From Stratiformator vulcanicus (lineage in GTDB: Bacteria > Planctomycetota > Planctomycetia > Planctomycetales > Planctomycetaceae): a DNA stretch of 64,000 nt. Positions 40,400-42,356 of this stretch are shown in pieces (position 1 is the stretch's first letter; every line of letters starts with the position of its first letter). The stretch is from the NCBI RefSeq assembly GCF_007744515.1, contig NZ_CP036268.1:3580712-3644711 (forward strand). The letters run 5' to 3'. Under the pieces are notes generated by a model, which was not told the DNA's origin, ran no database searches, and worked only from the letters and a program-made list of their open reading frames with translations. Made by a program: the position numbers and the translations under genes.

Positions 40400-41386
40400 A
40401 TGTCATTCGTTGCGTCGCCAACTCTCTTCGCGAAATCGCTCATCGTCGCCGGAATTCTGACGGTAGCAGCCACCGTGTCGGCTGATTTTAAGGTCACCGA
40501 CCTCGGCAAGCAATTTTCGCCGAGCGCGTCCGTGATCGTGTCTCAACCGGTGTGCAATACCGGCGGGAACACGAGCGTCCGCAACTTCGACCGCGACAGC
40601 ATGGTTTGGAAAGACAAAGGCTACTACCAACGCAGTCGCGATCTCGGCCAGACCTTCACCGCCCCGCGCGATTTTACGCTTCAATCAATTGTGCTGAGGA
40701 CAGGGCCCGCACACTTGGCAGTGCTTCCGGGCACACCGAACGCACCGCTCTTCGTTCAGTTCTTCGAGATCATCGGAGAGCCGGTCATCGACGACAACGG
40801 GACGCCCCGCGGAACCAAGGCCAAGCACGGTTTCAGCAAGAATCACCGCTGCGACGATTTCATTGAAGGGATCGAGTACCGCAGCATCGCTGTCGTCAAA
40901 GGGGCGGTCTTCCCCGATATGCCGTTGTCGAGAAATGAGCAGGGGGTCACGCTGCCCGGCGACGATGCGAATTTTCGATACATGCGTTGGGCCTTCACCG
41001 GCGAGGATCGCCTGTCGTTCGAAGAAGGACGCCGATACGCATTTATGGTCGGTTTTGCCGAACCGGGCGACGGTCGCAATTTCACGCTCGCCAATTCGAA
41101 TGCCGCGGCTCGACGCGACAAACCGGCAATCAACGGAAAAGGTGACCTTTATGGGGGCGGTTGGGCCATTCGTCGCGAAGGTGACGGCACACTGCCTCCC
41201 GACACGGTCCCGGGGGCTGATCCGCCAAAGAACACTGAAGTCCGGAACGAGCTAATTTCGCAATCGCTCTTCGGCGAGGGCGAGGCCCACTACAAGCTCA
41301 GCCCCACGACCGAAGGGTATCCCGACGTCGACACCTATCGTGATCTGGAGTTCTATCTCGAAGCGAGCGACGCAGATGGCGAGTAG
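40400..41386 (+). CDS. Exported protein of unknown function, coupled to the phosphatase-cytochrome gene
   Basis: A 328-residue protein from ATG 40400 with a signal peptide (MSFVASPTLFAKSLIVAGIL and on, cleavage near VSA). The mature part is beta-rich with 'RSRDLGQTFTAPRDFTLQSIVLRTGP', 'FVQFFEIIGEP', 'WAFTGEDRLSFEEGRRYAFMVGF', suggesting a jelly-roll/sandwich domain like those of secreted planctomycete carbohydrate-binding proteins. No catalytic motif is recognised. Its last 11 nt overlap the next gene, so the two are likely translated together and may work on the same side of the membrane. Confidence 0.75.
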   Translation: MSFVASPTLFAKSLIVAGILTVAATVSADFKVTDLGKQFSPSASVIVSQPVCNTGGNTSVRNFDRDSMVWKDKGYYQRSRDLGQTFTAPRDFTLQSIVLRTGPAHLAVLPGTPNAPLFVQFFEIIGEPVIDDNGTPRGTKAKHGFSKNHRCDDFIEGIEYRSIAVVKGAVFPDMPLSRNEQGVTLPGDDANFRYMRWAFTGEDRLSFEEGRRYAFMVGFAEPGDGRNFTLANSNAAARRDKPAINGKGDLYGGGWAIRREGDGTLPPDTVPGADPPKNTEVRNELISQSLFGEGEAHYKLSPTTEGYPDVDTYRDLEFYLEASDADGE

Positions 41387-42356
41387 TTTTGCCGCCGGGC
41401 AACGCCGACCGCTGCGTCATCTGCTCATGATGTCGCTCTTGCCCATAGTGGCGATAGCGAATGGCGGTGCCGCCGAGAGCGTAAGCGGTGTTTCGCATGA
41501 CATCGCCCGGCTGGATTCCGAATTTCTTCCGAATGCCATCCGAGTCCATCCGAGAGTGATTTCGGGCGGAACACCGGACGGCTCGAACGCATTCGCAGAA
41601 CTTCGCACCATGGGCGTTAGAACGTTGATCAGCGTCGACGGAATGACGCCAGATGTCGAATCGGCGAAGAAATACGGCTTGCGATATGTCCACCTGCCGC
41701 ACGGCTACGACGGCATCGCCGATGACCGTTTCAAATCGCTGGCTAAGGGGGTCCGCACGCTGCCCGGCCCGATCTACATCCACTGCCATCACGGCAAGCA
41801 CCGCAGCCCCGCGGCCGCGGCGGCCGGTTGCGTCGGCGCAGGACTCATCTCGAAGGATGAGGCAGAAGAACTGCTGAAATTGGCGGGGACCGGCAAGAAC
41901 TACAAGGGGCTGTTCGCCGTGGTGCATAAGGCTGAGCCGCTCGACGAAGATGAGATCGACGCGATTCCCGCCGACTTCCCGGAGACTACTGAAATCGCCC
42001 CGATGGCCGAGGCAATGGTCAAAATCGCGCAGGCATTTCACAATCTTGAACGATTGCAGGCGTCGGGTTGGAAAGCACCCGCTGATCACCCTGACCTCGA
42101 CGCCGTTCACGAGGCACTGCTTCTCCGCGAACATTACACCGAGATGCTTCGGACGGACGATGCCCGAAGTCGACCAAAGAGATTTTATCAGATTCTGGCA
42201 GAGGGTCGCGATCTGGCTCAGCGGCTTGAGGTTGAGCTCGATGAGCACAGGGCATCAGCGGCGCAGCCGCGAAGTGGCGAGCGACTGCTGACGGCCCTCG
42301 GCAACAACTGCAAAGCCTGTCACGTCAAATTCCGCGACAATGCTTTCGCCGATTGA
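41376..42356 (+). CDS. Exported tyrosine-phosphatase-like domain fused to a C-terminal c-type heme motif
   Basis: A 326-residue protein from ATG 41376, overlapping the upstream gene. A hydrophobic signal (RHLLMMSLLPIVAIANGGAA) ends near residue 33. Residues 55-185 form a cysteine-phosphatase-like fold ('HPRVISGGTPDGSNAFAELRTMGVRTLISVDG') with the loop I-H-C-H-H-G-K-H-R-S: C137 and R143 fit the C-x5-R signature of dual-specificity phosphatases. Residues 205-300 are helical, and CKACH at 312-316 then K and R residues fit covalent heme attachment as in cytochrome c'-like helical domains. Phosphatase activity and heme are predicted from motifs only. The partner and substrate are unknown. Confidence 0.8.
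   Translation: MASSFAAGQRRPLRHLLMMSLLPIVAIANGGAAESVSGVSHDIARLDSEFLPNAIRVHPRVISGGTPDGSNAFAELRTMGVRTLISVDGMTPDVESAKKYGLRYVHLPHGYDGIADDRFKSLAKGVRTLPGPIYIHCHHGKHRSPAAAAAGCVGAGLISKDEAEELLKLAGTGKNYKGLFAVVHKAEPLDEDEIDAIPADFPETTEIAPMAEAMVKIAQAFHNLERLQASGWKAPADHPDLDAVHEALLLREHYTEMLRTDDARSRPKRFYQILAEGRDLAQRLEVELDEHRASAAQPRSGERLLTALGNNCKACHVKFRDNAFAD

Follow-up and report, generated by a model that had tools for sequence, protein, structure and literature searches.

The window, that is, the whole stretch of 64,000 nucleotides analyzed here, comes from Stratiformator vulcanicus, whose genome is a single contig of 5,228,745 bases. Translation of positions 41376-42356 (+ strand, as are all features of this gene given below) yielded an ORF of 326 aa plus stop. 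The deduced N-terminus, RRPLRHLLMMSLLPIVAIANGGAA, was recognized by eye as a putative signal peptide (residues 1-33, 41376-41474), in which basic residues, a run of hydrophobic ones and, near residue 33, a site with small residues could be seen. A P-loop, IHCHHGKHR, occupies residues 135-143 and holds C137 and R143, and a CKACH motif is found at residues 312-316. These positions are exactly those given in the first-pass annotation, which had also reported the overlap with an upstream ORF; this ORF (40400-41386) shares 11 bases with the gene. Using a crude pattern, a lipobox-like motif was detected in 32 of 112 family members, the window protein being without one. Based on the translation, homologue search and alignment, the whole gene was assigned to an exported phosphatase-cytochrome fusion. 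We are nearly certain of the two-domain architecture, in which a PTP/DSP-type domain and a cytochrome-type domain are joined in one exported chain.

The AlphaFold2 model of residues 32-326, obtained from 79 sequences (pLDDT 94.2, pTM 0.87), displayed a PTP/DSP fold around C137, followed by a four-helix bundle. The phosphatase domain (about residues 50-200, 41523-41975) was delimited from this model, the Pfam matches of relatives, and profile and fold searches. The best solved relatives by profile were the chains of TpbA (PA3885, Pseudomonas aeruginosa), with values of 4.2e-7 and 1.4e-6, and Foldseek also ranked TpbA first (E 7.3e-7). In VIA, TpbA (Z 15.8, rmsd 3.1 over 155 residues) was tied with DUSP23 (15.7, the value given for 2img), with Siw14 and AtPFA-DSP1 showing Z values of 14.9 and 14.6, respectively. 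The window protein alone stayed under every Pfam cut-off (BLH_phosphatase 0.054, Tc-R-P 0.094). Among 33 family members, matches at E<=0.1 were obtained to Tc-R-P (32), PTP-SAK (27), PTP-NADK (25, best 3.7e-10), BLH_phosphatase (19) and DSPc (13).

The segment HCHHGKHR (residues 136-143, 41781-41804), with the nucleophile C137, R143 and the conserved H142, has the HC-x5-R form of the phosphate-binding loop of the cysteine-based PTP/DSP superfamily, whose fold is also the one seen in the model. In the profile alignment, D112 (41709-41711), C137 and R143 fell in the columns of TpbA D105, C132 and R138, the TpbA residues being counted by hand from C132. In TpbA, D105 is the likely general acid and the loop reads 131-HCKHGNNR-138, according to the available part of PMC4409338. 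We consider it likely that the C137-bearing domain carries out phosphoryl hydrolysis.

The second half of the protein was assigned to a four-helix bundle of the cytochrome c'/b562 type (about residues 209-321, 42000-42338) from the Pfam matches of relatives, a profile search and models. The family Cytochrom_C_2 (PF01322) matched 28 of the 33 members at E<=0.1 (best 3e-8), with the window protein being under its gathering score (15.6 vs 26.5 bits). The profile search with the bundle retrieved cytochrome c' (2.2e-5) and b562 (0.0012). VIA on the full model compared chiefly residues 13-166, for which reason a separate model of the bundle was made and used as query. The resulting model (pLDDT 94.0) presented helices at model residues 10-30, 44-59, 69-91 and 100-121, and its top VIA matches were NaxLS (Z 12.9, 106 residues, rmsd 2.9), Shewanella cytochrome c' (12.0-12.2) and cb562 variants (about 11.4-12.1). 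BRIL fusions were among these matches, as these contain b562. The best Foldseek E value was 0.1, and VIA Z values of 11-13 can be reached by helical bundles through their arrangement, some unrelated helical proteins scoring close. Taken alone, the modelled fold match of the bundle is weak evidence.

The cytochrome assignment was drawn from sequence motif, fold and invariance taken together. A four-helix bundle with CxxCH and a following Arg characterizes the cytochrome c' family (PF01322), and all these elements are present here. The heme c attachment motif CKACH (42309-42323) provides the proximal ligand H316, and R320 (42333-42335), located by profile search and alignment, is the Arg of the CxxCHxxxR signature. 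Two genes of the host genome scored above cut-off for the cytochrome c assembly family, which makes heme attachment feasible, and the presence of heme c on the cytochrome half is very likely. Three other PF01322 stretches were found in the same genome (L143, L144 and L145; G000:C1:2053092-2053412, 1504348-1504494 and 3192439-3192588). Two of them belong to long proteins which, by eye, begin like lipoproteins and have no phosphatase loop.

Of 59 related genomes, 34 were matched in the whole-protein search, and in 33 of these (own genome included) the open frame carried both halves; the one other match, in G003, was weak and lay in the phosphatase half. When 294 genomes across the phylum were searched with the profile, 198 were matched at E<=0.001, many of them by a short match limited to the phosphatase half. 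A full-length match, defined as starting at profile position <=60 and ending at >=300, of 314, was obtained in at least 114 of the 294 genomes, under at least 26 family labels. In addition, a scan of genome contigs confirmed at least 504 of 594 pattern stretches as relatives. The phosphatase-cytochrome fusion is a widespread, real family, with both parts intact together in many bacteria of the phylum.

The residues invariant in the 33-row alignment include H136, C137, H138, G140, H142, R143, M214, E252, E256, R259, C312, C315 and H316. To these 33 homologues from the whole-protein search we have added 20 distant members, hand-picked among the full-length profile matches over a spread of family labels, the weakest included; none of the resulting 53 members was selected by motif. 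C137, G140, R143, H106, P108, Y111, M214, C312, C315 and H316 were present in 53/53 members, and H136, H142 and R320 in 52/53. H138 was kept in 45 and K141 in 40, and E252 (40/53), E256 (37/53) and R259 (37/53) drifted in the distant members, being nearly fixed in close relatives. M214 and CxxCH were also found in all rows of a larger, partly motif-picked set of 112 (106 when six near-identical pairs are counted once). As P-loop and YVH patterns had served to find the 80 loci of the contig scan, the conservation of the P-loop in this set is in part built in; those patterns did not include M214 or CxxCH. L135 gave no usable ORF, and L133, which is without the Arg after CxxCH, was omitted from alignments A2 and A3, yet included in a wider relatives count. 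The start codons of relatives were set by a simple rule.

These data agree with the first-pass annotation, in which the locus had been read as a phosphatase domain fused to a c-type heme motif lying in a helical region. The fold predicted around C137 is that of a PTP/DSP, the helical region is a four-helix bundle, and the two are conserved together. The pairing of C-x5-R with CxxCH is not due to chance, as C137, R143, C312, C315 and H316 were invariant in the 33 homologues and the 20 distant members, and each of the full-length relatives examined had both motifs.

The VIA range ends were used to place the heme ligands. Model residues 9-121 were aligned with b562 residues 1-106, and model residues 8-125 with NaxLS residues 25-132. 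If no gap lies near the ends, M214 (42015-42017) pairs with residue 7 of b562 and residue 32 of NaxLS, and H316 with residue 102 of b562. Met7 and His102 are the heme ligands of b562. The sequence alignment to b562 disagrees with this placement, M214 being three residues off Met7. NaxLS (Kusta0087/Kusta0088, Kuenenia), the best fold match of the bundle, is a two-chain cytochrome without a phosphatase, and its residue 32 is a Cys, as judged from the deposited variants C32M and C32G, instead of the Met of the fusion family; the existence of these variants indicates that position 32 was thought important.

With an invariant Met214 at the predicted position of the distal heme ligand of these bundles, a six-coordinate His/Met heme c is expected, which would act in redox reactions and not as a gas sensor with an open site. 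The bundle shares its four-helix arrangement and the CxxCHxxxR near the C-terminus with cytochromes c', c556 and b562; it differs from them in being joined to a phosphatase, with His/Met ligation predicted. Typical cytochromes c' have an open distal heme site, and the conservation of M214 suggests that here this site is filled. This weakens the NO or peroxide sensor contemplated in the first-pass annotation, although NO could still displace the Met. Such a sensor, in which NO, CO or peroxide would displace M214 and alter the phosphatase activity, seems improbable to us. NO binding by fold matches of the bundle argues for it: the publication on NaxLS, listed among the references of PMC8388095, calls it NO-binding in its title, and cytochrome c' binds NO according to the title of a deposited structure. 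An unrelated heme-c Cache domain is likewise an NO sensor (PMC12889525, in the part available). The invariant Met at the predicted distal position points the other way, since an open site is then probably missing.

The upstream ORF had been proposed to encode a partner of the fusion protein. Its product (P0002) is an exported-looking orphan for which searches of Pfam and NCBIfam gave nothing at E<=1. Among 36 genomes, with the own genome counted as a separate match, a single homologue was detected (57% identity), in a genome that is without the fusion (G021), and none of the ORFs at the remaining family loci was recognized as a relative. The partnership was therefore rejected. We have also found no conserved operon or neighbourhood in the family loci, where ORFs were taken as simple frames of >=100 aa in stretches of differing length; the largest cluster of neighbours comprised 14 loci, in mixed orientation and distance. 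As no neighbour recurs in a fixed arrangement, the fusion protein seems to work as a self-contained unit.

The joint retention of both parts hints at a possible control of the phosphatase by redox conditions outside the cytoplasm. Cysteine phosphatases are redox-sensitive. The reading we favour, held tentatively and at somewhat below even chances, is an extracytoplasmic cysteine phosphatase controlled by the redox state of its own heme. Redox control of the phosphatase had also been considered in the first-pass annotation. Sequence and models show the folds, the residues and their joint retention, and the coupling of the two domains is inferred, as are heme occupancy, iron coordination, activity and substrate. 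The protein would be exported and its heme c attached covalently outside the cytoplasm by the host cytochrome c assembly machinery. The iron, six-coordinate through His316 and Met214, would switch from Fe(III) to Fe(II) and back as the compartment becomes more reducing or more oxidizing. The phosphatase would in turn be controlled by this redox state, either because the packed helices change position or because the thiol of the active site receives an electron. In catalysis, C137 would attack the phosphate and R143 bind it, with D112 and/or H142 handling protons. Against this reading stand the lack of D112 in 17 of the 53 members, the absence of a universal second Cys, the three-residue register difference of M214 in the sequence alignment, the modest fold scores of the bundle and the position of the window protein under all Pfam cut-offs. 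A second Cys suited for a disulfide switch was looked for, and no position was shared by all of the 112 members; another Cys within residues 50-200 occurred in 109/112, most commonly at site 152 (90/112).

The cytochrome domain could instead be an electron carrier, a docking or a structural module, attached to a phosphatase that it does not regulate. We give this possibility rather low odds, roughly those of one case in several. Four-helix cytochromes with His/Met ligands, among them b562 and c556, are of the electron-transfer type, which is in its favour, as are the three other PF01322 stretches of the host genome, two of them in proteins that look lipoprotein-like by eye. However, all full-length members examined had the two halves joined, and in the model the domains are predicted to take up a defined arrangement relative to each other (pTM 0.87). 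A broader version of heme-controlled dephosphorylation, which we put forward with more reserve than redox control in this single protein, is that phylum-wide heme-c phosphatases read the extracytoplasmic redox state through a His/Met heme that directly gates dephosphorylation, possibly by delivering an electron to the catalytic thiol.

The column of the general acid was more variable than the P-loop cysteine. D112 was kept in 36 of the 53 members and replaced by S (7), R (3), N (2), K (2), A, E or Q (1 each) in the others. On a tree built by a quick method and with many open forks, the D112 state required 10 changes, at least four of which were forced by starred branches. The dispensability of this Asp in 17 members would fit a sulfur or thiol redox enzyme with no phosphatase activity, where C137 would carry a persulfide or an oxidized thiol and the heme would exchange electrons. 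The occurrence of a thiol and a heme within one chain also fits, and the best NCBIfam match was the sulfur transferase/dioxygenase Blh (E 0.0024). We nevertheless hold such an enzyme to be very unlikely. Membership in Blh was rejected, as the match reached 16.8 bits against a cut-off of 625 and covered residues 93-167 only. Moreover, the HCxxGxxR loop and the fold are nearest to TpbA and the DUSPs, and AtPFA-DSP1 is a phosphatase that manages without a catalytic acid (available part of PMC9038691).

For a C137-dependent phosphatase, the substrate would be an extracytoplasmic phosphoryl compound. It could be a phosphoprotein, like that of TpbA, or a phosphoanhydride, like those of Siw14-type enzymes. 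The fusion resembles TpbA as an exported or periplasmic DSP, TpbA being its best profile and fold match. The window protein also has the TpbA-like general acid Asp, a trait not general in the family (36/53). TpbA differs in having no cytochrome domain and no His before the Arg of its loop, HCKHGNNR, and its substrate is TpbB/YfiN. With the PFA-DSP/Siw14 inositol pyrophosphatases, the fusion has in common a similar fold and the P-loop C-x-x-G-K-H-R, in which a His adjoins the Arg. Those enzymes have no heme domain and no general acid in the loop, whereas the window protein has D112, 17 of the 53 members being without it.

The loop of AtPFA-DSP1, Cys-Lys-Arg-Gly-Lys-His-Arg (Lys151, Arg152, Lys154, His155 and Arg156 after Cys150), shares five of seven positions with that of the window protein, and a change of His155 abolished 95-98% of the activity, as given in the available part of PMC9038691. 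In the accessible portion of PMC10653929, the substrates of S. pombe Siw14 are pyrophosphate, polyphosphate and inositol pyrophosphates. Given this chemistry, the replacement of D112 in 17/53 members and the retention of H142 in 52/53, we infer by analogy that a phosphoanhydride may be as possible a substrate as a phosphoprotein.

Both halves are of known kinds, and their combination is a TpbA-like phosphatase with a built-in cytochrome. No description of a phosphatase-cytochrome fusion was found in searches of open-access literature, and no Pfam or NCBIfam entry with this combination matched the window protein above cut-off. The Heme-Cache (DUF3365/Tll0287) sensor domains likewise couple an extracytoplasmic covalent heme c to a signalling module, with a different heme fold (Cache) and different output modules, and no phosphatase fusion appears among them in the available part of PMC12889525. 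If heme control of the phosphatase were true, a dedicated heme redox centre inside a cysteine phosphatase would be a new mode of control. The protein would then, by itself, connect electron transport with phospho-signalling or phosphoanhydride turnover outside the cytoplasm. To our knowledge, extracytoplasmic phosphorylation has been little described in this phylum, which would thereby gain an assayable signalling enzyme. The idea is directly testable, since the gene is widespread, stand-alone and small.

Some relatives deserve separate mention. Shorter relatives of the phosphatase half, covering about positions 7-188 of the profile, occur in many genomes of the phylum (e.g., G107:C9:306356-306835 and G158:C75:28304-28789). 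Two full-length members (L134 and L136) come from MAGs labelled Pedosphaera, a verrucomicrobial name, pointing to either a spread beyond the phylum or mislabelled bins, and two further loci (L101 and L103) carry the MAG label Candidatus Kuenenia. The remote member L148 (G208:C1, about 1254200-1255700) has the loop Thr-Cys-Glu-Thr-Gly-Arg-Asp-Arg, in which the counterparts of C137 and R143 are kept and both His are lost. By eye, its frame runs upstream into the apparent end of a cation exchanger membrane protein, and in this member the fusion may be attached to a transporter.
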